Shown here piece after piece: positions 2,924 through 16,013 of a DNA stretch of 64,000 bases (its first letter is position 1; each line of letters opens with the position of its first letter). The position numbers and the translations under genes are program-made. This stretch comes from a virus. The notes below the pieces were generated by a model. That model made no database searches, had not been told where the DNA came from, and worked only from the letters and a program-made list of their open reading frames with translations. The stretch covers positions 58,759-122,758 of the IMG/VR virus record IMGVR_UViG_3300029957_000007. One strand, 5' to 3'.

Positions 2924-3895
2924 ATGAAGCGCATTGAAGGTGAAGGTGGTGAAGGACAGAGTTCTCAATCTGTTCCTTATTCTTCTGAACATTGGAAAGA
3001 GCTGAAGGATCGTGGTCTCACTACCTCCACACCTTCGCCTTCGATGCGTCAAACTGACTACAAGCAAGTGAATGCAGGGGATAAGTTCACCAGCTTAATT
3101 GCTGGTGAACTTACCGTTGCTTCAGTCACTGGTGAGATCACACACGTCGCTGACAAGAAAGGTCAGACGTTCATGGTCTCTACGGCGAGATTGAAAGAGC
3201 TCAAAGCCAAGCGTAGAAGCGTGAGCTTTAATATCGGTGTGAATCACGGTATGGTCATGATCTCATCTGAAGACGATCGTGACTCAGACCTGTGGAGATC
3301 AATGTGCGAGATATTCAAACGCAATGGCTACACACCTGACAGCGGCTATACGATGTTCCAGAAGCTTGACACGAACATTGAAGACGAAACTGCAAAGCTG
3401 ATCGCTGAGTTCGAGAAGGAAGGATACAAAGTTCATCAGGATTCTAGCGGTGGATTGAACAGCACTTTCTACATCTACTTCGATTCTGAAGATGCTGAGA
3501 GAGCCGCATCAAAAAGGAAGATCGTTGCAGTAATGAAAGAAAAGACGAAGACGCTGGTCTTCGATTTCGATGGCACTATCACATCGGAAAATACCTTCCC
3601 TGAGATCGCCGATCCTAATGAAGAGATCGTTGCGTACATGGAAGAAGCGAAACAGCTTGGGTTTGAGATCATCATCCATAGCTGCCGAACATCGTCTGAG
3701 CTGAATGATCAGAGCACTGCTGCTGAGCAACTCAAAGCGATGACTGACTACCTTGCACTGCACGATATTCCTTATGATGAGATCTGCACATCAGACAAGC
3801 CATTGGCCGTTGCTTACATCGACGACAAAGGCTGCAATGTGCTGGATGCGCAACGTCTTCGAAGCATCATTCATACTTCAAAGAGGATTCGATGA
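2924..3895 (+). CDS. Modular protein with C-terminal HAD-superfamily phosphatase domain
   Basis: A 323-aa protein starting one base after the previous stop. The N-terminal ~100 residues hold another small beta-barrel module (AGDKFTSLIAGELTVASVTG), ended by AKRRSVSF. A ~90-residue alpha/beta domain follows, ended by ASKRKIVAV. The C-terminal ~110 residues are a HAD domain: motif I LVFDFDGT (D214, D216), motif II HSCRTS, and the acidic motif AYIDDKGC after a DKP lysine. The last residues (SKRIR) again resemble the recurrent basic motif. HAD proteins of this shape hydrolyse small phosphorylated molecules or polynucleotide ends, and the substrate cannot be told. The gene overlaps the next by 4 bases (ATGA), so the three modular proteins form one translational unit. 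Confidence 0.8.
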   Translation: MKRIEGEGGEGQSSQSVPYSSEHWKELKDRGLTTSTPSPSMRQTDYKQVNAGDKFTSLIAGELTVASVTGEITHVADKKGQTFMVSTARLKELKAKRRSVSFNIGVNHGMVMISSEDDRDSDLWRSMCEIFKRNGYTPDSGYTMFQKLDTNIEDETAKLIAEFEKEGYKVHQDSSGGLNSTFYIYFDSEDAERAASKRKIVAVMKEKTKTLVFDFDGTITSENTFPEIADPNEEIVAYMEEAKQLGFEIIIHSCRTSSELNDQSTAAEQLKAMTDYLALHDIPYDEICTSDKPLAVAYIDDKGCNVLDAQRLRSIIHTSKRIR

Positions 3896-6642
3896 GCAAG
3901 ATCAAGACAACGGCTGATGCCGACAACTTCGATTTGACTGAAGGGATTTTGAACGACGCTCAAGTTGCTGCTTATGGCGAGCATGCGCCGAACAAGATCG
4001 ATCAGCCGAATGATTTTGCTTCGCCAGGAGAAAAAGCTCCTGATGGTTTCACAGCCTCAAGACGAGCTGCTGTGCGAACAAATGCCCCAGAAGAATTCAA
4101 CAATGAAGATGAGCTGATCGACTACTTCACTGATGTCAATCGCACTGGCGATGCGTACATGGTGAGAGCGATCATTGATGGTGCCACCACCTACGTCAAG
4201 TACCAGCGGGATGGCAACGTCATCAAGCGTCAAGCCTCAAAGCGAACTGCTGAGTCCTATCGTGTCACGGTGGAAACTGAGAGCGGCACCGAAGAGAAGA
4301 TCCGTATCCTCGATGCTACTTCAGAGGATGATGCGAAAGAAAAAGCAATGAAGCAATACAACAACTTAAAAGGTGTCATTAGCGTTGAGAAGGTAGCTTT
4401 TAAACGCACTGCTTCAGGCGACTACGAAGTTGGTGACATCTACACCGATGTCAATGGCAACAAGTATACGATCAAGTCTTCAACAGAGGAATCGTCAGTT
4501 GCAGATGAGTATGATGAAGCCTTCTTCAAGGTGGAAGTCAACCAAGCTGTTTTTTATGATGGTCCAAAAGTTGTTGACATGGAGATGAGTGAATCAGCGT
4601 TGGACGATCTTGGCTTGGTTCGAGTCGGTTCAAAGCGCACTGCTTCACGATACAAGGACTGGAATGGCAGAGAATTTGATGTGCTCAATGGCATCGAAGA
4701 TGACGACACAGTCACCGTCAAGTACGTTGATGACGGCAGTGAATCGAATGTCGATGCAAGGTCTCTCGCCAATTCGGTCAAAAAAGGAGACGTCGTGAAA
4801 GTCGCTTCAAAGCGCAAGGCTTCAATCGATAATGACGATGAGAGACAGAAATATCTTGCCTACATCAAGCATAACTTAGTCAGCTCACCGCCAAATGAGA
4901 TCAAGAATGATCTGCGCAAAGATGGCCTCTCAGAAGAAGAGATTAGCGGTCTCTTTGAAGAACTGAGAAACACTGTGACTGGTGCCAAAGGCATTCGTGT
5001 TGGCAAGCTTAAGCGCAAGGCGTCTTTTCAAGTTGGCGATCTTGTGAAGAACAAGATCGGTGAAGAAGGAAAAGTTGTTGAAGGTGATGAAGGCGATGGA
5101 ATGGTTGGTGTTGATTTTGGTGGGCCAATTGAGCTTATCGAAGTCACCGACCTACAGGCGTGGAATCCTTCAGGAACCGAGAACGACGTTGACAGCTTCA
5201 CGGAGAAGGGTACTTACGGTGTCAAGAGCAAGAACGCTCCAGATCCTGAGGACGCTGCTCACTCAACTGATGTGGACTACATCGCTTCAAAGAGAACCGC
5301 TTCAATGTCTGTTGGTGATAAAATCACTGATGGTAATGGAGAAACGTTCATTATCACCGGCTTTGCAGATAATGGTCGTGTGCTGGGTACGATTGATGGA
5401 GAAGAAACAGAATTTACTGAGAAAGAGCTTTATAACAAAGTTCAGAATGGTGAAGCCACTCGAGTTACTGGTTCAAAGCGAACCGCTGCTAAGATCGAAT
5501 GGAACAGTCAAACAATTTGGGCAACTCAAAACCCAGATGATGGCTCATATGAATTCGAATTTGGTGGTAAGGAGTTTTATCTGGAAGGTGACCAAGTCTA
5601 CAGGGCTATAGATGGTTCACCAATTGGCACTGGTAAAGTGATAGAAGCTTCAAAGCGAACAGCTTCATTCAAAGGTCAGCAAGTTGTTGTTGATGCTGAA
5701 GGTTTCAACTACGTCGAAGGTCTTGTTGCTGATGAAGGCACCATTGAAGAGTTGATGCAACGCAACGATGCAGCTGCTGCTCAAGGCGATTCGCTGATCG
5801 ATGATGGTATGGGCTTCGGTGCCGACACGCAAGCAGTGATCATCAACACGGAAGAAGGTGACGTGCTTGTGCCTTCAGAATTTGTGAGACAGCAAGTTGA
5901 ATCTGGCACAGTGGTCGGCCGTCTGTTCAAGAAAGCTGATGAACAACCACAAATTGGCGATACTCTTGTCGATGCTGAAGGTCGCAAAGCTCGTGTTATT
6001 GCATTTGGAGATGATGGGTCAGTGGAAGTTGAAGGGCCAGATGGCGAAACATATCACACTTGGCCAGATGGAGTGAAGATCATTAAACATAAAAATGTTG
6101 TTGATGCATCAACAAAACGCACCGCCAAAGGTTTCGGCATTGGTGACAAAGTGGAATGCGAGCAAGGCTTCGGTGTCGTGAAGGATATCGACTTCGATGG
6201 CGATGGCAATTCAATCTACACCATCTCGCTTGAAGGCGGCGGTGAAGATGATTACCAAGAAGGAATGCTTTCAAAAGCTGCTTTAAAACGTCTTGCTTCA
6301 GATGAATACGATTTTGAAGTCGGTGATCGATTCAGAGACAAAAACGATCTTGAATGGATTGTGATCGAGTCAACTGATAGCAACGATCCAAACGCTGACA
6401 ATCGCATCGGATTGATGGAGCCACTCACTGGCACGAAGATTTATCCTGATGCTGACAGCCTCGAAGCGAAGATCTCTTCTGGTGAGATGGTCAGAACATC
6501 AGCCAAACGTACAGCTGATGAAGCTCATGAAAAAGAAGAGATGGGTGAGGAACAACGCATCAAGAAAGATCTGGAAGAGATCGATGAGATCATCGATCAC
6601 ATGTTCGATGCTGACTCTAAGCAAGTGAAAGGAGTTGAGTGA
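3892..6642 (+). CDS. 916-aa polyprotein of tandem beta-barrel modules separated by SKRTAS-type motifs
   Basis: I recognise no enzyme domain. The protein is a string of ~55-95-residue modules. Several have the KOW/SH3-like pattern of VGD, a turn, a GxV strand, DGxV and G-E (for example after K374, K467, K742 and K799). Modules are separated by a basic motif, with its lysine at residues 117, 171, 248, 307, 374, 467, 529, 588, 742, 799 and 872 (forms SKRTAS, FKRTAS, SKRKAS, LKRKAS, LKRLAS). A degenerate FKKADE lies near 680, filling the one long gap. Composition is strongly acidic between motifs. The same motif lies in the capsid precursor and protease-scaffold protein, so I infer cleavage by the prohead protease into about a dozen small internal head proteins. 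Confidence 0.75.
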   Translation: MSKIKTTADADNFDLTEGILNDAQVAAYGEHAPNKIDQPNDFASPGEKAPDGFTASRRAAVRTNAPEEFNNEDELIDYFTDVNRTGDAYMVRAIIDGATTYVKYQRDGNVIKRQASKRTAESYRVTVETESGTEEKIRILDATSEDDAKEKAMKQYNNLKGVISVEKVAFKRTASGDYEVGDIYTDVNGNKYTIKSSTEESSVADEYDEAFFKVEVNQAVFYDGPKVVDMEMSESALDDLGLVRVGSKRTASRYKDWNGREFDVLNGIEDDDTVTVKYVDDGSESNVDARSLANSVKKGDVVKVASKRKASIDNDDERQKYLAYIKHNLVSSPPNEIKNDLRKDGLSEEEISGLFEELRNTVTGAKGIRVGKLKRKASFQVGDLVKNKIGEEGKVVEGDEGDGMVGVDFGGPIELIEVTDLQAWNPSGTENDVDSFTEKGTYGVKSKNAPDPEDAAHSTDVDYIASKRTASMSVGDKITDGNGETFIITGFADNGRVLGTIDGEETEFTEKELYNKVQNGEATRVTGSKRTAAKIEWNSQTIWATQNPDDGSYEFEFGGKEFYLEGDQVYRAIDGSPIGTGKVIEASKRTASFKGQQVVVDAEGFNYVEGLVADEGTIEELMQRNDAAAAQGDSLIDDGMGFGADTQAVIINTEEGDVLVPSEFVRQQVESGTVVGRLFKKADEQPQIGDTLVDAEGRKARVIAFGDDGSVEVEGPDGETYHTWPDGVKIIKHKNVVDASTKRTAKGFGIGDKVECEQGFGVVKDIDFDGDGNSIYTISLEGGGEDDYQEGMLSKAALKRLASDEYDFEVGDRFRDKNDLEWIVIESTDSNDPNADNRIGLMEPLTGTKIYPDADSLEAKISSGEMVRTSAKRTADEAHEKEEMGEEQRIKKDLEEIDEIIDHMFDADSKQVKGVE

Positions 6643-7019
6643 TGAGCTTCACACCATTGAACGTGAAGATCGATGCGACGGTGGTCGTCACACAGGCTAA
6701 CCCATTGAATCCAGCTGTTTCAAAGCCAGTGTACCAAGGTGTTGATTTCTCTGGGTTTGCTGATGCTCAAGCATCAAATGCAGATAACCAAGGGAATCTC
6801 AATATTCCGGCTAACACATCTGCGAATGTTCCACTTCCGGCAGGTACTACGAACTCCAAGTTCCTGTTCTATCGCTTCAACAACCCAGTGAATCTGTCTG
6901 GACTTGTGAGTGCGCAGAACACGAGATACGGGATTTTGGAGATCACATCGGCTGTTGCACTGACTGTTGCCGCAGGAATCAACGACACACAAGGCTTCGT
7001 GATGATCTTAGGAGCCTAA
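6642..7019 (+). CDS. Small virion protein, unknown
   Basis: A 125-aa protein; the ATG at 6642 overlaps the upstream stop (TGATG) with GGAG upstream. The predicted fold is all beta: polar strands with Asn, Thr and Ala, no cysteine, no charged helices. Position in the head block and composition suggest a structural or decoration protein. No family was recognised. Confidence 0.6.
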   Translation: MSFTPLNVKIDATVVVTQANPLNPAVSKPVYQGVDFSGFADAQASNADNQGNLNIPANTSANVPLPAGTTNSKFLFYRFNNPVNLSGLVSAQNTRYGILEITSAVALTVAAGINDTQGFVMILGA

Positions 7020-7709
7020 ATGAAAGTTCAGACAAAGAAAGCTTTTATGACGATCATCCTCGCTTTGGTGCTCATGAATCTCACAACAGTATGCGTTATA
7101 CTTGTTGTGCTTGATCGGAACACCAAAGCGCTGGAAGATGCAAAGGCTGAAGAAGTACTTGCACGAATTGGGGACAATAGGATGTTAAGGGCACGGAGTA
7201 ACTTTGAACTGCCGGGCTTTACACCTACCCACCTCGAACGTGTCACGAGGAACGCTGACACGATGGGAATACCGTGGTGGGTACCAGCCGGTATTGCAAA
7301 GCACGAAAATGGAGGTGACACGCTCGAGGTTGGGATGCAAATCATCCCAATGAACATCCGCATGAACACTCCAGTAATGGAGTGGCAGTACGTTGCACTC
7401 ATGCGAATGCTCAACCAACAGGCGTGGAGAGTGATACTCTCTGACCCTGAACTTCTGCCGAAGGTCCTCATACCTTTCGCTCAGAACTACAAATCGTCTG
7501 ACCCTCAACTGTGGCTGAAGCAAACCAACAATGCAATGATCGACTTCAGAAGCAGAGAGGAGATCTCGAAAGTAGCACATGACACGGTGGTGTCTGATCC
7601 ACCTTCACCTTCGAAGTTGAAGAAAAAGAAACCTTCGACTAAGAAGTTTCACAGGAAGTTTAGGATCAACCCTAAACTCAAACGAACACAAGGAGAAAAC
7701 AAACAATGA
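7020..7709 (+). CDS. Membrane-anchored lytic-transglycosylase-like protein
   Basis: A 229-aa protein whose ATG follows the previous stop directly. Residues 9-31 are one hydrophobic segment with a basic N-terminal flank, so an uncleaved signal anchor is likely. The region around 84-100 (IPWWVPAGIAKHENGG) resembles the start of an SLT/lysozyme-like domain with E96 as candidate catalytic acid. A later segment, EVGMQIIPMNI, corresponds to the usual GxMQ stretch. The C-terminus is a highly basic Lys/Pro tail. It may cleave peptidoglycan as an anchored (signal-arrest-release) lysin or act during DNA entry. The family match is partial, so the activity is tentative. It overlaps the next gene by 4 bases. 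Confidence 0.55.
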   Translation: MKVQTKKAFMTIILALVLMNLTTVCVILVVLDRNTKALEDAKAEEVLARIGDNRMLRARSNFELPGFTPTHLERVTRNADTMGIPWWVPAGIAKHENGGDTLEVGMQIIPMNIRMNTPVMEWQYVALMRMLNQQAWRVILSDPELLPKVLIPFAQNYKSSDPQLWLKQTNNAMIDFRSREEISKVAHDTVVSDPPSPSKLKKKKPSTKKFHRKFRINPKLKRTQGENKQ

Positions 7710-8724: not shown

Positions 8725-11601
8725 GTGTTACTGAGATATGCGAAAGCCAAGATAACACGAATCGCCTCGTGGGATGAGATCTTTATCAGAGACAGAAAGG
8801 TCAGAACAGCTTCCATCCTGGAAGACAAAGCACTTGATCGTACCATTCAGATCAAGCCAATCGCATTGAACCCACAGAAGTATTTGTATGTTCAAGCGAG
8901 AGCAGTGAGTGGCGGTGAAGTACATGGTCCAAACGACAACGGCGACTACTTTCGTTGGGAGGAGCTGCAAGAACGGTACATGACGTTCATTGGAGCTGCT
9001 GTCAACATCGACCACAAGAACAACGCACCAGAATGGGCTTGTGGTATCATCATCGACGCACAACTCAATCCTGAACAATGGGTTGAGATCGTCATGGCTA
9101 TCGATAAAGCAAAAGCAGAGAAGTTGTACCCTGGAGTCATCAAGAAAATTGAGGCTGGAGCTATCACAGACGTCTCAATGGGCTGCTTGGTAGAATGGTC
9201 GATCTGCTCAACTTGCTTGAGAACGAAGGCCGATGGCGATGAATCGAAGCTTGTGCAGGGTCAAGGGCTTGCAATGGAGCCTGAAGATTATTGCGAGCAT
9301 GTCGATGAAGATTCGCCTGCATTCTGTAAAGGAATGCCTGATCCGGATGGAGAGATCTGCCATGAAGATAATCGTGGCGTGACCTTCTTTGAAGAGAGCA
9401 TCATCACAACTCAAGGCGCAGATCCAGACGCCAAACTCGGACAACGCTTTGCGTCTGTCAAGATCAACGAAAAAATTCGAATCGCTTCATTCGCTCCACC
9501 TCAGCACACACCTTCAGACAAGTCGGCATTAGCGCCGTACATCAACTTTCGGTCACTCGACAATGTGCGACTTGCACATTTGAAACGGATCTCAAAAGGA
9601 GAAGATAGCATGGGTGCTGAGAAGAAGCCAGTGGTTGCTGCTGGTCCGGGGAATCCAACGGATACAGAGCAGGACAGAGGCGATTACGGCAAAGCCAGCG
9701 AGAAGGACAAGGCTCTCTTCGATCAAAGCAAGCAGAAGAGCCAGAAGGAAGACGAGAAGCGAGGCAATGAGGTGGAGACCATGATCGACCGTGGCGACTA
9801 CACACTCGCTGCTTTGGCTGCAGTGCAAGTCCTTCGCAAAGCTGGTAAGGCCGATCCAAAGCTGATCGCTTCCCTGCTGCCACTCATCGCCTCGGAAGAG
9901 GAAGTTGAGAAGCCAGGCGAGAAGAAGGCTGATGAGGTCGACATGCACAAGGACAAGGCGAAGCCCGGTGAGGAAGAGGGCGTCGAGGAAGTCCCTGAGA
10001 AAAAGGAAGTCGGTGAGAAGCCAGGCATGGTTGAGAAGGGCGAAGAGGAATATGTCGAGCCAACAGCTGCCACTGCTGCTAAGAAAGATGTGAAGCTGAG
10101 CGGCAAGGATTCCAAGTTCGCTCAGGCCAAGGCTGTTTTGGCTGATGCAATGAGCAAAATTGGTGCCATCCTTGGCAATCCTTTAGAGACCGCAAAGGAT
10201 GCTGGCGATTACGATGCTGGCGATGTGAACAAAGAGACCAAGTCAGTGGCTGACAGCAATGCTGGTGCCACTGAGAAAGAGAAGAAGGCGCAAGATGCCG
10301 CTGGCAATTCGACCAAAGAGGATCGTGAGAAACAGGTCGAGCTGGCCAAGCGTGCTGCTGCCAAACAGCGCAAAGCTGATAACGAAGACAAGAAAGTGGA
10401 CTTCATCACGAGTGAGATGATGAAGGGCAAGAACTTCGACGACTCCAAGCAAGAAGCTGATGAGCGCTATAAAGAAGACGAGACTCGTCAAGCCGCTGCT
10501 GAGCCAGAGATGAAGGACGGCACAGACAAGACGCAGAAGTCACCAGCCACTGAAGACAAGGCTGAAGGCGAGAACAAGATGCAAGACAAAGAATTGGATC
10601 AAGAGAAAGCTGGTTCCTCAGTCGAGAAGCCTGAAGTCGAGCGAGAGATCGCTGCTGGCAAGAAGGTGAAAGCTGAGAGCACCGAAGAGGAAATGCAAAA
10701 AGGCACTGAAGAGACCAAGGACAGCAAGAAGGAAGCCGCTGCTGAAGAGGCTCCCGAGTCGAAGGAAGAGAAAGAGGTCGAAGGCGCCAAGGAAGAGAAA
10801 TCCGAGAAGCCAGAGGAAGTGGTTGGGAAGCTCGACACCGCTGCTGCCGCCTTTGAGGACGAGGAGAAGAAGCTGAAGGAAGAGGCCGCAAACCTCGCCT
10901 CCCTCGGCCTGAAGGAAGAGGCGAAGCTGATCGTCAAGCGGATCTCTTCACTTCAAGAGAAAGTCGCTGTGCTGAACAGCCTGGCGAACAAGATCGAGGA
11001 CAACGGCAAGCGCGTTGCTTCGGTTGCGAACATTGCTCAGCGGAAGAAAGCGCTGGGTCAGTTCTCCATCATGGTCAAGAAGGCCTCGGTGATCCTGGCT
11101 GAGGTCTGCAAGGGCGATGATGAGGAGAAGAAGACGGTCGAGTCTTCGATGCAGAAGTCGGCTTCGGCCAAGCGGCTTGCTTCAGAGAATGCTCAACTGA
11201 AGGCCTCCCAATTGAAGCAGCAAGCGGCTATCCAGCGCATTGCTCGCTCTCAAGCGGTCTCCAGCCTGATCAAGATGGCGAAGGAGAAGGGGCTGATCGA
11301 CGAGACACAGGTTGCGAGCACCATCGAACGCTGGTCTAAACTCTCGGATCCTGCTTTTGCCGAGATCAAGGCCCACTTCGCTGCTGCAAAGCCTGTTCGA
11401 GTGGCTGGTGTGCAGGGTCTGCGCAAGAATCTCCGTGAGGCTGCTGCGGGCTTGACCCGTGTCGCCAATGGAGAACTTGAAGGCGTGGAAGCTCCTGTGG
11501 CTGGCTTGATGAAGCAATCGGACCTTGACGAACAGCTGGCGGACATGTTCATGGACGATGCTCGTGCCATGGGCAGCAAAGGACCCCGCGGAAGCTTCTA
11601 A
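8725..11601 (+). CDS. Prohead protease-scaffold fusion protein
   Basis: A 958-aa protein starting at GTG 8725 with GGAGGAA upstream. Residues ~50-165 fit a herpesvirus-assemblin/phage prohead protease: a GPNDNGDYF-WEEL segment, H97 in VNIDHKN and S151 in TDVSMGC as the probable catalytic pair. Residues ~300-740 are a very long Glu/Lys/Ala-rich, mostly helical scaffold, followed by a coiled-coil tail. Motif R-x-A-S occurs at R12 (TRIAS), R27 (VRTAS), R252 (IRIAS), R763 (KRVAS) and R817 (KRLAS). Variants occur at R288, R739, R838, R892 and R912, consistent with self-cleavage and scaffold breakdown. Protease-scaffold fusion is known in phages, but this one is large. The cysteines at C154, C161 and C164 are also notable. 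Confidence 0.85.
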   Translation: MLLRYAKAKITRIASWDEIFIRDRKVRTASILEDKALDRTIQIKPIALNPQKYLYVQARAVSGGEVHGPNDNGDYFRWEELQERYMTFIGAAVNIDHKNNAPEWACGIIIDAQLNPEQWVEIVMAIDKAKAEKLYPGVIKKIEAGAITDVSMGCLVEWSICSTCLRTKADGDESKLVQGQGLAMEPEDYCEHVDEDSPAFCKGMPDPDGEICHEDNRGVTFFEESIITTQGADPDAKLGQRFASVKINEKIRIASFAPPQHTPSDKSALAPYINFRSLDNVRLAHLKRISKGEDSMGAEKKPVVAAGPGNPTDTEQDRGDYGKASEKDKALFDQSKQKSQKEDEKRGNEVETMIDRGDYTLAALAAVQVLRKAGKADPKLIASLLPLIASEEEVEKPGEKKADEVDMHKDKAKPGEEEGVEEVPEKKEVGEKPGMVEKGEEEYVEPTAATAAKKDVKLSGKDSKFAQAKAVLADAMSKIGAILGNPLETAKDAGDYDAGDVNKETKSVADSNAGATEKEKKAQDAAGNSTKEDREKQVELAKRAAAKQRKADNEDKKVDFITSEMMKGKNFDDSKQEADERYKEDETRQAAAEPEMKDGTDKTQKSPATEDKAEGENKMQDKELDQEKAGSSVEKPEVEREIAAGKKVKAESTEEEMQKGTEETKDSKKEAAAEEAPESKEEKEVEGAKEEKSEKPEEVVGKLDTAAAAFEDEEKKLKEEAANLASLGLKEEAKLIVKRISSLQEKVAVLNSLANKIEDNGKRVASVANIAQRKKALGQFSIMVKKASVILAEVCKGDDEEKKTVESSMQKSASAKRLASENAQLKASQLKQQAAIQRIARSQAVSSLIKMAKEKGLIDETQVASTIERWSKLSDPAFAEIKAHFAAAKPVRVAGVQGLRKNLREAAAGLTRVANGELEGVEAPVAGLMKQSDLDEQLADMFMDDARAMGSKGPRGSF

Positions 11602-11652: not shown

Positions 11653-11672
11653 ATGCAATGGAGGAAAGAACA

Positions 11673-12143
11673 ATGGGTATGCAGGTCCTGCAACTCAGCT
11701 TCAAGGATGGCAACATCCCGTTGGATCCCACCGTGGCTGCGAACGGCTACTTCGGTGGTCAGCCCGCTGCCATCAATTCGCTCGGTCAGGCCACGAAGGC
11801 TACCAGCGGTGGTGGTTCACCGGCTTACATCGGCATGTTCAAGAACTCACAGTACGAGGACGCTCAGAACGGCAACGTGACGATCGTCTTCGGCGCTAGC
11901 AAGGTGCAGTTCATGAACGGTTCGGACCAGGTGGAGAACACTGACCTGTCAGGCAATGTGATCGAAGGCGCTCCGTATGATACCACTCAGACGTACGCCA
12001 ACGCTCAGTACCTGTACATCGATCACGTGTCCGGCCTGTGGACCAACCAGAGCGCTGGCAACGGCACTGCGAAGGGCATCATCACCAAGGCCCCGACGTC
12101 GACAGACTCGACGCTGGAAGCCTACATGTTCGCCGTCGCCTAA
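11673..12143 (+). CDS. Probable head decoration/stabilising protein
   Basis: A 156-aa protein. I chose ATG 11673 because GGAGG at 11660-11664 is correctly spaced for it, while the in-frame ATG at 11658 lies on top of that site. The product is all-beta, Gly/Ala/Thr-rich, with strands such as GNVTIVFGASKVQF and ends with a YMFAVA strand. GC-rich, highly expressed-type codons and position between the scaffold and the major capsid gene are typical of a capsid decoration protein (lambda gpD-like position). The family is inferred from context. Confidence 0.65.
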   Translation: MGMQVLQLSFKDGNIPLDPTVAANGYFGGQPAAINSLGQATKATSGGGSPAYIGMFKNSQYEDAQNGNVTIVFGASKVQFMNGSDQVENTDLSGNVIEGAPYDTTQTYANAQYLYIDHVSGLWTNQSAGNGTAKGIITKAPTSTDSTLEAYMFAVA

Positions 12144-12185: not shown

Positions 12186-13154
12186 ATGGATCCGAGAATG
12201 TCACGTGCCATGCAGGCTTTCGCTTCGGCTTACAACGGCGACCCTGCTACTGCCGGCAAGCACCCCGGCCAGGTGAGCTCTGAGAAGCGTGAGGCTGCCA
12301 AGCGCATGCATCTTCGTCGTGAGGCTGCTCTCACCCAGGCTCTGCAAACCGAGGCTGGTCTGAAGCGCATCGCCGCGAACATGTCGAACCCTGTCCGCTT
12401 CAAGTTGGACTACAAAGGGATCTTCCGCAAGTTCGTCATTGTGGAACAGATGCCCGATGGCGTCCCGCTGATCTGGGACAAGGATCAGCCGCTGGCTCCT
12501 GCCGTGAAGGTCGGCAAGGGCGGTTCACCTCGCATGATCGAGATGCGAGGCAAGCGTGTGGAGCTCCAGGCCTTTGAGATCGCCAGCCGTGTGAAGGTTC
12601 CTTACGAGGAGCTGTTCACTCGCCGGTACAGGGCCCTGGATCGTGCCAAGGATCGTCTGATCGAAGGCATGGAGCTGCGTGAGGATCTGATCGGCTTCTC
12701 GCTGATCGAGACCGCGAGCTCCCTGGTTAACACCCCGGTGGTGACGGCCGGTGCTTTCGACCGTGATCTGCTGGCCAAGATGTTCGTGCAAGTGGAAGCC
12801 AATCGCTTGCCTGTTGCGACGGTTCTGATGTCGCCATACGGCACGATGGGCATCCGTCGTCTGCAGTTCCAGAACCTGGACCAGGTCGGCATGCAGGAAG
12901 TCCGGGAGACCGGGTACCTCGGCAACATGTGGGGTGCTGACTTCTACGTGTCAGATCAGATCCCGGCTGGTACGGCTTACGCCTTCACCGGTCCAAAGTT
13001 CTTCGGCTGGATGCCGATCCGCAAAGACACCGACGTCATCCCTGCTGATGACCCGGACAATCTGCGCCTCGGCTTCGTCGGCTATGAGCTCCTGGCCATG
13101 ACGATCTTCAACGCCCTGGGCGTGGTGAAGGGCAGCTTCAACATCGCTGCCTAA
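12186..13154 (+). CDS. Major capsid protein precursor
   Basis: A 322-aa protein; ATG 12186 has CGGAGG 10 bases upstream. The first ~64 residues are helical and charged (a delta/pre-domain) and end in LKRIAAN (K60-N65), matching the recurrent basic motif. Cleavage there would leave a ~258-residue mature shell protein starting near SNPVRFKLDY. The body has an HK97-fold-like pattern: RFKLDYKGIFRKFVIVEQ, a long helix around the RALDRAKDRLIEGMELRED stretch, and the late NALGVVKG segment. Codon use is the most GC-rich of the window, consistent with the most abundant protein. It follows scaffold and decoration genes in the usual order. Confidence 0.85.
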   Translation: MDPRMSRAMQAFASAYNGDPATAGKHPGQVSSEKREAAKRMHLRREAALTQALQTEAGLKRIAANMSNPVRFKLDYKGIFRKFVIVEQMPDGVPLIWDKDQPLAPAVKVGKGGSPRMIEMRGKRVELQAFEIASRVKVPYEELFTRRYRALDRAKDRLIEGMELREDLIGFSLIETASSLVNTPVVTAGAFDRDLLAKMFVQVEANRLPVATVLMSPYGTMGIRRLQFQNLDQVGMQEVRETGYLGNMWGADFYVSDQIPAGTAYAFTGPKFFGWMPIRKDTDVIPADDPDNLRLGFVGYELLAMTIFNALGVVKGSFNIAA

Positions 13155-13243: not shown

Positions 13244-13696
13244 ATGTCGAATGCTAAAGTCGTGACACGTGAGATGATCGAGAACATCCGCTTCGTTCAG
13301 AACACGTTGAACGCTCAGCTGATGATCCCTGACCTGGGCAAGAACGGCATCGTTCTGACGCCTTACGAGATCGTGGACTTCTCTCGCTTCTTCTCCAAGC
13401 GTGAGCTCGGTCAGTCATCGCACTTGGATTACTGCCTGAAGGAAGGGCATCTGAAAGTGCTGGAGACTCCTGCCAATGTTGCCGAGGCAACTGGCGAGAA
13501 TCTCAAGTTCAAGGACGCTGTGCAGGAAGAGGACAAAGAGAAGCTGCGTGGTGAAGAGCTCCCGAAGGACACGCCGGTCACTGATCGTGTTGAGACCAAG
13601 TTCGATGAGGGTCTGGACAAGGTTGAGGACAAGGAAGACCAGGAAGACGAAGAGACCAAGCTCAGCAAGAAGCGTCGCAAAGCCAGCCAGGAATAG
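13244..13696 (+). CDS. Acidic head accessory protein with C-terminal RKAS motif
   Basis: A 150-aa protein. ATG 13244 is preceded by AAAGGAA; an upstream in-frame ATG at 13169 would read through the capsid hairpin and is not used. The N-terminal ~85 residues form a compact domain (helix, then IVLTPYEIVDFSRFF). The rest is strongly acidic (EDKEDQEDEE). The last residues are KKRRKASQE, the same R-x-A-S motif found in the scaffold and polyproteins, so the protein may be trimmed by the prohead protease. The location just after the capsid gene suggests a head or head-neck accessory. Confidence 0.6.
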   Translation: MSNAKVVTREMIENIRFVQNTLNAQLMIPDLGKNGIVLTPYEIVDFSRFFSKRELGQSSHLDYCLKEGHLKVLETPANVAEATGENLKFKDAVQEEDKEKLRGEELPKDTPVTDRVETKFDEGLDKVEDKEDQEDEETKLSKKRRKASQE

Positions 13697-13711
13697 GTGG
13701 ACAGCGATTAA

Positions 13712-13739
13712 GGATCTCCCTCAGCAAAGAGGGAGATCC
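13712..13739 (+). terminator. Terminator of the head operon
   Basis: A perfect 11-bp stem, GGATCTCCCTC with GAGGGAGATCC, and loop AGCAAA are followed by CTTTG. It is the strongest candidate terminator of the left half and separates the head block from the surface-protein block. Confidence 0.8.
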
Positions 13740-13740
13740 C

Positions 13741-13774
13741 TTTGTGTTGTGAAACAGCGAATTCACAACACAAA
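13741..13774 (+). terminator. Second hairpin after the head operon
   Basis: The arms TTTGTGTTGTG (13741-13751) and CACAACACAAA (13764-13774) pair perfectly over 11 bp, immediately after the first stem. An eight-T run follows at 13788-13795. Together with the stem at 13712-13739 it makes a tandem terminator. Confidence 0.65.
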
Positions 13775-13817
13775 TGGATCTACCACGTTTTTTTTCCACC
13801 CACAAGGGAGACAAGCA

Positions 13818-16013
13818 ATGAAGAGAACAGCGCTGCTCATTGGCTTGCTGATGTGCACCATCAGCGCATGGGCCAATCCATCAACACCAACGGGACTTGC
13901 CGTTGTGACAAACACAGCGACAAGTGCTAATCTGACTTGGAATTCAGTCAGCGGCATTGGTATCAAGTACAACATCTATCAGAATGGAACATTACTCGGA
14001 AACAATGGCGGCACAAATGCTCAAGTGTCTGGCCTTGTAACTGGCGTGAGTTATGGATTCGGCGTTCAAGCTTTTGACATCAACAACCTCGCATCAGCGG
14101 TTTCGCCATATGTGACGATCACTGCTGGATCTGGTGTCACGCCAACTGGTCAAGTACAGAATGTCTATTGCGTGAATTGTTCCTCTGGGTCAGGTGGCGG
14201 AGGTGGTTCCGTCACACAGGGGACTTCACCATGGGTTACGAGCGGAACAATTACAGGATCTATTCCAACTGGTAACAATACAATAGGTGCCGTTGGTGTG
14301 ACAAGTATGCCAACTATTTCAATTAATCCGGCCAATGTCTACATCACTGGCACGGTGAATGCTAATGTCACCTCTTCTACTGCGCAACAGATTACGATTA
14401 CTGCTTCGAGTATCACGTTACCAGTTAGTGTGACGGCGGCATTACCAGCTGGAACAAACTACATTGGTGCAATAAATATTAGCAATACATCAGCAATTAG
14501 CATTAGCGCCACCGGCGGGGCATTTGGAGTGAACAACTTCCCAACCTCACTGACAAACGGCGATTGGGTCTCAGGTGATACGCCAGAAGCTCAACTTGCA
14601 TCAGTGGAAGCCTACTTGAAGATGTCGAACACGGCTGGTACTGCTGACAACGTAATGGGTGACACCACCAATGGTCTGTGGGTTAATCTGAAGAATGCAG
14701 TCGCTTTGACTGTGAATACCCATGCCGTTACGCAGTCTGGAGCATGGGCTGCATTCGTCACACCAAGCGTTGGTACGTCCAGTGGTTCTCCTGCTTTCAT
14801 CTCCGTGACAGGTCAGGTTCCAGTGACTTGCTCTAATTGTACTAGCGGAAGCAGTGGAGCTTCTTCTGGGCTGAGTCTGGGAGCGCAGACTACAACTGCC
14901 GTTGTCGGATGGTTTGGCGGCATCACGAGTTCGGTATCCGTAAATACACATGCAGTGACTCAAAGCGGAGCATGGGCTGCATTCGTCACACCAAGCGTTG
15001 GTGTTGTGGCTGCAACTCCAGTATTTGTTTCCATACCAGCGGGAACTTACCTGACAGCCAATCCGGTGGGAGGTGCATTCCTTGGTTCTGTTTCCTTCGT
15101 TGCAGGTGCGATTGGAACTTCTTCTGGCAATCCACAATATGTCAATCAAGCTGGACTCACTTACTACAACAGTGTGAGTAACAATAGTTCTGTTCAACTT
15201 GCTTCATCTGCTACATTCACTGGAGCTATCGAAGGAGCTTTTAACCAACCAGCTGCACAGGTTATGGTCTTCGGCGACCAACCCATGACCATCTATTGTG
15301 ACCAGTTTAACGCCCTAAACAACGTTGTGGAAACAGATACTTTTACTTATGTGACATTCACTACTGGCATCGCAAGTCAGGGATTCAATCGTAACATTAT
15401 GATTACTGGAGACGCCTTTAGGGTGCGGTGTCAGAATACGGGGGCAGGCACCACTACTACATTTAATTTAGAAACCACTTACGGTACCTTACCACCAGAA
15501 CCCAACGCCATCACGAGTTTAGGTAATAAAAAGATTGCTTTGATGGAATTAGGAGGCCTTCTCCTGAACGCTGCTGGAATTCCTATTTCAGGAACGGTCA
15601 ATTCAAATCTGTACGTCGCAGGTGCTGCCAATAATGCAACTAACGGCGCGTTCTTCAGCAACCTTGGCAACTACTCTACCGGGCGATACGTCACCACAGC
15701 CGCTGGGGCTACGAATGCAACTTCCATTAAAGCCAGCAGTGGCATGATTACTGGATTGTGGGCCAGCAACACCAATGGCAGTACACAATATATTAAACTT
15801 TATGACGTGTCATACACGCCACAAGTCGGTGTTACTGTACCGATGCTAACCATAGGCGTCCCAGCAAATGGTGGTTTTCTCAATCCAGTTGGAGCATCTG
15901 CCTGTCTGACATTTACATCTGGGATTGCAACCGCTACTACAGCTAACAGTGGTGATACAGACGCAACGAGCATTGCTGCTTCAACATTGAAATTTATCAT
16001 TAACTGGAAATAG
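13818..16013 (+). CDS. Exported fibronectin-type-III surface protein
   Basis: A 731-aa protein. ATG 13818 has GGGAG upstream; it begins with a Sec signal peptide (MKRTALLIGLLMCTISAWA, cleavage likely before NPSTP). Residues ~20-100 are an FN3 domain (PTGLAVVTNT, SANLTWNSV, KYNIYQNGTLL, VSYGFGVQAFD). The rest is a low-complexity beta-rich body with Gly/Ser linkers and repeated VNTHAVTQSGAWAAFVTPSVG units (~300-320 and ~375-395), one 36-base part of which is identical at DNA level. It looks like an adhesin or fibre. Whether it is secreted from the infected cell or assembled on the virion cannot be decided from sequence. Confidence 0.75.
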   Translation: MKRTALLIGLLMCTISAWANPSTPTGLAVVTNTATSANLTWNSVSGIGIKYNIYQNGTLLGNNGGTNAQVSGLVTGVSYGFGVQAFDINNLASAVSPYVTITAGSGVTPTGQVQNVYCVNCSSGSGGGGGSVTQGTSPWVTSGTITGSIPTGNNTIGAVGVTSMPTISINPANVYITGTVNANVTSSTAQQITITASSITLPVSVTAALPAGTNYIGAINISNTSAISISATGGAFGVNNFPTSLTNGDWVSGDTPEAQLASVEAYLKMSNTAGTADNVMGDTTNGLWVNLKNAVALTVNTHAVTQSGAWAAFVTPSVGTSSGSPAFISVTGQVPVTCSNCTSGSSGASSGLSLGAQTTTAVVGWFGGITSSVSVNTHAVTQSGAWAAFVTPSVGVVAATPVFVSIPAGTYLTANPVGGAFLGSVSFVAGAIGTSSGNPQYVNQAGLTYYNSVSNNSSVQLASSATFTGAIEGAFNQPAAQVMVFGDQPMTIYCDQFNALNNVVETDTFTYVTFTTGIASQGFNRNIMITGDAFRVRCQNTGAGTTTTFNLETTYGTLPPEPNAITSLGNKKIALMELGGLLLNAAGIPISGTVNSNLYVAGAANNATNGAFFSNLGNYSTGRYVTTAAGATNATSIKASSGMITGLWASNTNGSTQYIKLYDVSYTPQVGVTVPMLTIGVPANGGFLNPVGASACLTFTSGIATATTANSGDTDATSIAASTLKFIINWK
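14739..14774 (+). repeat. 36-bp exact direct repeat, copy 1
   Basis: Bases 14739-14774 are identical to 14967-15002, within two copies of the same protein repeat of the FN3 protein. Flanking codons have diverged at third positions while this core has not. Recombination between the copies would delete 228 bases in frame (76 codons). Confidence 0.9.
14967..15002 (+). repeat. 36-bp exact direct repeat, copy 2
   Basis: The second copy of the repeat at 14739-14774, in the same reading frame. Confidence 0.9.

Follow-up and report, generated by a model that had tools for sequence, protein, structure and literature searches.

What is the product of a phage head gene in which small domains alternate with one recurrent basic motif? 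The question is raised by an open reading frame (ORF) in a 64,000-nucleotide stretch of viral DNA (the window; bases 58,759–122,758 of the 122,758-base IMG/VR record IMGVR_UViG_3300029957_000007, which has no end repeats). The record is a fragment of a phage-G-like virus, and the ORF (3892–6642, + strand), which we call P0001, lies among its head genes. A sequence-only reading had taken it for a polyprotein cut inside the head into many small proteins. We find that the observation is real and unusual, and consider it likely that P0001 is a head polyprotein that is cut by an assemblin-like prohead protease and partly carried into the host with the DNA.

Motif-delimited segments of P0001

P0001 is a single ORF of 916 residues with an ATG start, which shares 4 bases with each neighbouring ORF in an operon-like arrangement. 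A frame artefact is ruled out by these overlaps on both sides together with a multi-module ORF (297 residues, four KRKA/KKKA-type linkers) at the matching place in the relative L004. The motif [KR][KR]xA occurs 13 times in P0001, compared with a mean of 1.07 and a maximum of 7 in shuffles that keep the same amino-acid composition (0/20,000 reach 13). KRTA is seen 8 times and SKRTA 5 times, against shuffle means of 0.016 and 0.001, respectively (0/20,000 shuffles in both cases). This excess is the strongest among 75 scored ORFs (87 sources; at least 150 residues and at least three motifs, out of 1,344 ORFs of at least 100 residues), and it bears out the repeated basic motif first noticed between the modules.

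Splitting the chain after each (A)SKRTA↓S-type linker (the arrow marks the predicted cut), and at residue 682, where a weaker KKA site stands, yields 14 segments of 41–93 residues plus one 5-residue piece. The linkers are basic and the segments mostly acidic, with isoelectric points (pI) of 4.1–5.4 in 13 of the 14 and of 8.0 in one (residues 311–377); the entire chain has a net charge of −76 and a pI of 4.5. The acidic character envisaged from the sequence holds for all segments but one. The suggestion of DNA-condensing proteins is not supported: with 13 of 14 segments acidic, DNA condensing is unlikely to be the main role of P0001.

Fewer segments are barrel-like than the dozen or so β-barrel modules originally counted: by eye, about eight show the VGD...G...V pattern. 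Both ends appear unstructured or helical. Segment 1 (residues 1–60, 3892–4071) is of low complexity, ends in ASRRAA and may, at a guess, be a targeting part. Segments 2 and 3 (residues 61–115 and 121–174; 4072–4236 and 4252–4413) look α/β-like. They are followed by two segments that are barrel-like by eye and resemble segments 8 and 13 (segments 4–5, residues 175–251 and 252–310, 4414–4821), by the helical-looking, sole non-acidic segment 6 (4822–5022) and by segment 7 (residues 378–470, 5023–5301), in which a KOW/SH3-like pattern leads into an acidic tail. Segments 8–9 (residues 471–532 and 533–591, 5302–5664) are described below. Segments 10–13 (residues 592–682, 683–745, 746–802 and 803–875; 5665–6516) are again mostly barrel-like by eye, and segment 14 (residues 876–916, 6517–6639) forms an acidic, helical-looking C-terminus.

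Self-BLAST of the polyproteins detected no internal repeats, and we therefore judged segment relatedness by pairwise scoring against shuffles. Within P0001 the resemblance is weak (the top 5 of 78 pairs score 45–50; the 150 shuffled pairs reach 40 at most). Segments of different ORFs are likewise only weakly related (5 of 143 comparisons with z >4.2), the closest relation being that of segment 2 to a stretch of the ORF G000:29002-29679 (z 7.2).

We modelled one junction, that between segments 8 and 9, from a 10-row alignment (mean predicted local distance difference test score (pLDDT) 84.4, predicted template modelling score 0.50). The model contains two β folds, and its confidence drops around the KRTA linker. 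Foldseek returned tandem agenet, Tudor and KOW proteins as top matches (E 0.02–0.05, best 0.023). VIA aligned residues 1–57 of the 121 modelled residues, i.e. segment 8 and not segment 9, with SH3-like barrels at Z 5–7.5 (TnsB 7.5, TraI 6.3, Spindlin 5.6, Spt5 ∼5), values below 8 that may reflect merely a common arrangement. Segment 8 is thus likely an SH3-like barrel that ends at the linker and resembles small barrels of the KOW/Tudor/SH3 type, to which P0001 has no sequence match. In the model the chains on either side of this linker fold separately; as the sequence-only reading had expected, no continuous fold runs across the motif at this junction.

Searches of PHROGs, Pfam and NCBIfam with the P0001 segments gave no convincing family match (best PHROG E 0.011; best Pfam E 0.032, below cut-off) and no recognised effector, enzymatic or nucleic-acid-binding domain, and the segment alignment had no match among PDB sequences. 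P0001 itself found no match by tblastn in 50,697 phage records, no confirmed match in viral_contigs (a search that did not cover the genome_contigs collection), and none in seven related records (a search without a positive control). Hidden Markov models and phmmer queries made from the segments returned little beyond P0001 among the collected ORFs (best other match E 0.009). The proposed search for homologues has thus yielded the layout with other modules in relatives, as detailed below, and no sequence match to P0001.

The prohead protease and its candidate cut sites

The motif is also found in other head proteins. Comparing ORFs of at least 150 residues, we count 19 RxAS in 16 head ORFs (taken from two gene blocks) versus 1.9 expected, and 38 [KR][KR]xA versus 10.0. 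When P0001 is set aside, the other 15 head ORFs still contain 11 RxAS versus 1.6 and 25 [KR][KR]xA versus 8.8 (0/1,000 shuffles reach any of these four counts). The remaining 71 ORFs of the record have 1 RxAS versus 4.1 expected and 25 [KR][KR]xA versus 24.7. A smaller excess is seen in a separate upstream block of 7 ORFs, which includes the portal and a 399-residue ORF (RxAS 3 versus 0.57, 10/1,000 shuffles; [KR][KR]xA 9 versus 2.7, 2/1,000 shuffles). The reversed motif is unfit as a control, being itself raised (ASKR fits it), and was replaced by the shuffles and by the comparison of head and non-head ORFs.

Aligning the 24 linkers from the four multi-module ORFs of the record, we find Ala at P6 (14), Ser at P5 (8), Lys at P4 (22), Arg at P3 (22), Thr at P2 (10) and Ser at P1′ (9). 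The P1 alanine is constant (24/24, and 23/23 in the relative G001); P1, P3 and P4 are set or limited by the search pattern, and for the alanine only the enrichment counts. The P0001 linker matches the motif that is enriched solely in head ORFs of the record, and we infer that basic-x-Ala↓Ser would be the site of the protease itself.

A candidate protease is encoded downstream of P0001 as a 958-residue protease–scaffold fusion (8725–11601, + strand; phrog_18299). Our model of its protease domain (∼8875–9447), built from 29 aligned sequences, has a core pLDDT >90. Foldseek matched it to herpesvirus assemblins and T4 gp21 with probabilities of 0.97–1.00 (1.00 for T4 gp21) and E ∼0.01. VIA aligned it with the varicella-zoster virus protease (Z 10.1, root mean square deviation 2.8 over 118) and with T4 gp21 (Z 9.5, 3.0 over 131); herpesvirus and T4 proteases fill the top 38 rows, ahead of an unrelated one at Z 6.3. 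An alignment search against PDB sequences gave chance-level matches only. By its model, then, the domain has an assemblin-like fold. His-97 and Ser-151, the putative catalytic pair, are invariant (29/29), and the conserved Asp-111 and His-192 are candidates for the third catalytic residue. Herpesvirus proteases cut at Ala↓Ser. The ORF has the layout of herpesvirus UL26 in common (a protease domain closed by a site, then a scaffold with a further site towards the C-terminus; as outlined for UL26 in PMC4498786) as well as the assemblin fold (Z up to 10.1); it differs in being a phage protein and in the conserved Cys residues of the domain. Cys-161, Cys-164 and Cys-190 are invariant (29/29) and His-192 nearly so, and this CxxC...CxH pattern suggests a metal bound within the assemblin fold. 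In five related protease ORFs (L058, L065, L066, L074 and L040) the domain is split by long inserts of ∼330–420 residues, and portal ORFs of L021, L052, L066 and L069 also have long inserts, several with an FSTHNC- or GN-like junction end. Both sets of inserts look like inteins.

The fusion contains RxAS at residues 12, 27, 241, 252, 763 and 817 (6 versus 0.32 expected, 0/10,000 shuffles). The first four flank the protease fold (residues 51–241 in the model), and the last two lie in the scaffold part. In the major capsid protein, LKRIA↓ANMSNP is found directly ahead of the conserved body, after residue 63 (∼12374/12375), and presumably marks a pro-peptide boundary. The portal has RRKA↓NFADVTL directly ahead of its conserved body, and in the portals of several relatives RxA or KxA stands near the same place, followed by Ala, Ser, Asp or Gly. 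The phage G capsid chain 6wkk (280 residues) spans almost the entire ORF and by itself shows no cut.

These sites bear on the idea that P0001 stays uncut, as beads on a string whose basic linkers hold DNA or other head proteins within one long internal head protein. Such a role would suit the alternation of basic linkers with acidic segments, and internal virion proteins are often large and left uncut. A cut site, however, better explains why the motif also stands at the edges of the protease domain and ahead of the capsid and portal bodies, and why the linker keeps its alanine (subject to the search pattern mentioned above), followed by serine in 9 of 24 cases. We hold an uncut chain to be improbable.

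We favour cutting in the head because the linker motif is limited to head proteins and an adjacent protease has the right fold and the His/Ser pair. P0001 would be synthesized as one chain alongside other head proteins and packed into the prohead, where the protease would cut it after the alanine of the [A/S]-S-K-R-x-A↓S linkers, freeing ∼12 folded, mostly acidic domains of 6–10 kDa. At least some of these modules would remain with the DNA in the head, enter the host on ejection and act there as small binding proteins. Cleavage, cut position, packaging, ejection and effector action are all predictions; what now stands behind the earlier proposal of a polyprotein cut in the head is that the motif is restricted to head proteins and that the protease has the expected fold with invariant His/Ser.

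Several observations weigh against this scheme. The head blocks were defined after the data had been seen, and the positions of the capsid and portal sites were judged by alignment. The capsid site of many relatives reads RVALA↓Q or RAKLA↓A (xALA/KLA rather than KRxA), and that of LinStu and Stormageddon ends in Gly; the capsid evidence is merely compatible with our scheme because these sites vary. None of the P0001 segments has a recognised function among the families searched. Finally, [KR][KR]xA is absent from gp321 of the sister phage Tunturi_5 (2,000/2,000 shuffles reach this count), and its seven occurrences in Rctr197k 045 are a weak excess (102/2,000 shuffles).

Related layouts, polyvalent proteins and alternative roles

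Similar layouts occur as 'hypothetical protein' entries in Gordonia, Rhodococcus and Mycobacterium phages. The claim that no described phage protein has this design therefore has to be narrowed: the layouts are on record, where they have gone unremarked, and our search of the open PMC literature found no paper on the design. In G001, whose capsid protein is 78% identical over the best stretch, two ORFs of 1,097 and 1,410 residues have 12 and 9 [KR][KR]xA, mostly as (A)MK[KR]KA. The former matches KOW4_SPT5 (PF23291) at 36.7 bits, over a cut-off of 27, and as a query returned only its own contig. In gp12 of Rhodococcus phage Finch, linkers of SKKTA type (8 sites versus 0.67 expected, 0/2,000 shuffles) separate mostly helical-looking modules, and two of these are clear duplicates filling the space between motifs. 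Two module copies likewise occupy adjacent inter-motif stretches in L033 (score 308, shuffle maximum 46). Gordonia phage Stormageddon uses linkers of SRRTA type in gp8 and gp9 (14/2,000 and 0/2,000 shuffles reach the count). In Mycobacterium phage LinStu gp88 and in L015 the [KR][KR]xA excess is weak or none (82/2,000 and 497/2,000 shuffles) and [KR]xA is raised (44/2,000 and 0/2,000). Because these two, Tunturi_5 gp321 and Rctr197k 045 show little or none of it, the motif string is not universal in the multidomain proteins that phages with this type of capsid encode in their head regions.

The linkers are lineage-specific (SKRTA, MKRKA, SKKTA, SRRTA) and the modules differ and are only weakly related across ORFs, as they would if recombination at short stretches coding for KRTAS had shuffled the modules and left the linker as a by-product without a use. 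Basic-x-Ala is nevertheless kept across lineages, and the protease–scaffold, capsid and portal proteins, which are not built of modules, also carry the motif; we give this explanation very little credence.

Several head-region proteins of relatives contain enzyme-like domains: Tunturi_5 gp321 has three ART-PolyVal stretches, a 2H phosphoesterase and a GNAT domain, Rctr197k 045 has a GNAT domain, and a multi-module ORF in the head region of L079 (979–2760) has a ferritin domain (PF00210, E 1.3e-24). By analogy, an effector cargo is plausible for P0001 because its neighbours and related head polyproteins carry InPase, HAD-like, ferritin, ADP-ribosyltransferase and GNAT domains. The host-takeover effectors proposed from the sequence thus gain context from neighbours and relatives, but no P0001 segment itself matches a family convincingly.

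A different role would be that of a disposable acidic inner scaffold, whose pieces leave the prohead after cutting, make room for the DNA and have no part in the host. P0001 is strongly acidic (net −76) and located shortly before the protease–scaffold gene, and SPN3US pro-peptides, according to PMC10052503, receive several cuts and for the most part are not seen in mature heads. The segments, on the other hand, retain folded-domain character and diverse sequences, and ferritin and other enzyme-like domains in related head polyproteins would be needless in a filler. We consider a disposable core unlikely, although less so than an uncut chain.

Cleaved head proteins and polyvalent proteins offer the closest parallels to a cut and partly ejected P0001. 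According to PMC10052503, nine SPN3US head proteins are processed by gp245, which cleaves after AXE at 14 sites in all and cuts long pro-peptides repeatedly. In SPN3US and T4 the prohead protease that processes head proteins has the assemblin fold and acts on a short consensus, as is predicted here. The consensus differs (AXE compared with our putative basic-x-Ala↓Ser), and 13 of the 14 SPN3US sites remove N-terminal pro-peptides (PMC10052503), whereas the P0001 sites would split the chain into ∼12 folded units. Polyvalent proteins are large multidomain phage proteins predicted to be packed into the head and injected, and their InPase domains are likely packed into virions, as stated in sections of Iyer et al. 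2017 (PMC5512222). P0001 resembles them in having several domains per polypeptide (14 motif-delimited segments, with two folds in the modelled pair). An InPase of polyvalent type sits nearby, in the ORF at 1150–2922, and the ART-PolyVal domain is found three times in Tunturi_5 gp321. Unlike them, P0001 consists of small segments with a uniform linker; we recognise in it neither an enzyme nor an effector domain and found no peptidase of its own. The parts of PMC5512222 considered here emphasize self-processing by zincin-like peptidases, with assemblin-like ones only at the C-termini of some polyvalent proteins. P0001 is best read as a variation on polyvalent proteins and on internal head proteins that undergo cleavage, and not as a new class.

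We advance more tentatively, as somewhat short of an even chance, that large phages of the phage G and Bxz1 types employ their prohead protease, which is herpesvirus-like, to process polyproteins. Exchangeable mini-domains would be joined by the protease's own site, effectors would be added by module insertion, and dozens of small proteins could be loaded per head from few genes. We know of no cargo-polyprotein processing by herpesvirus proteases. If the reading of P0001 as a cut head polyprotein is true, many long 'hypothetical' head-region proteins of Gordonia, Rhodococcus, Mycobacterium and phage-G-like phages would be cargo strings, whose mature pieces could be listed from the predicted cut site. 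Ordinary virion proteomics of the culturable phages Stormageddon, Finch and LinStu would allow a test, and the likeness of phage head proteases to those of herpesviruses would reach further.

The head-gene neighbourhood

Upstream of P0001 on the + strand lies a 590-residue multi-module head protein (1150–2922) with KRxA-separated, barrel-like stretches. It matches phrog_4660 (minor head protein, 1.6e-14), and its C-terminal InPase domain (∼2482–2826; PF18823, 2.2e-23, 83 versus 26.8 bits) is of the polyvalent type. The 323-residue ORF that follows (2924–3895, +; phrog_1238, 1.8e-19) contains a HAD-like domain at ∼3497–3841. Beyond the protease–scaffold gene we find a decoration-like virion protein of 161 residues (11658–12143, +; phrog_1731, a weak match at E 0.0056) and the major capsid protein (12186–13154, +; phrog_2522). 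The latter shares 36% sequence identity with phage G gp27 and matches 217 phage records; its kin include Tunturi_5, Rctr197k and Gordonia, Rhodococcus and Mycobacterium (Bxz1-type) phages.

The 399-residue ORF of the upstream block (G000:37083-38282; L002:17083-18282) is multi-module, lies directly before the portal gene and contains five [KR][KR]xA (0/2,000 shuffles); one of its stretches resembles P0001 segment 9 (z 4.9). At the same place before the portal, Rhodococcus phage E3 gp70 is annotated 'structural protein', by label only; apart from the location of P0001 among head genes, this is the one hint of packaging in virions.

In L004 (5613–7652) the capsid gene is in two pieces (5613–6182 and 7152–7652) with a separate ORF between them (6230–7093), an arrangement resembling an intron that carries a homing endonuclease gene. 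Two ORFs among the head genes of L006 (4118–5419 and 7587–8870; LR745208) we take from their sequence to be TnpB-like. The listed start of the ORF at 13476–16013 of the window is, by our own reading, probably too early: a signal-peptide-like stretch, MKRTALLIGLLMCTISAWA, lies inside it, so that the product would be a secreted or surface protein.

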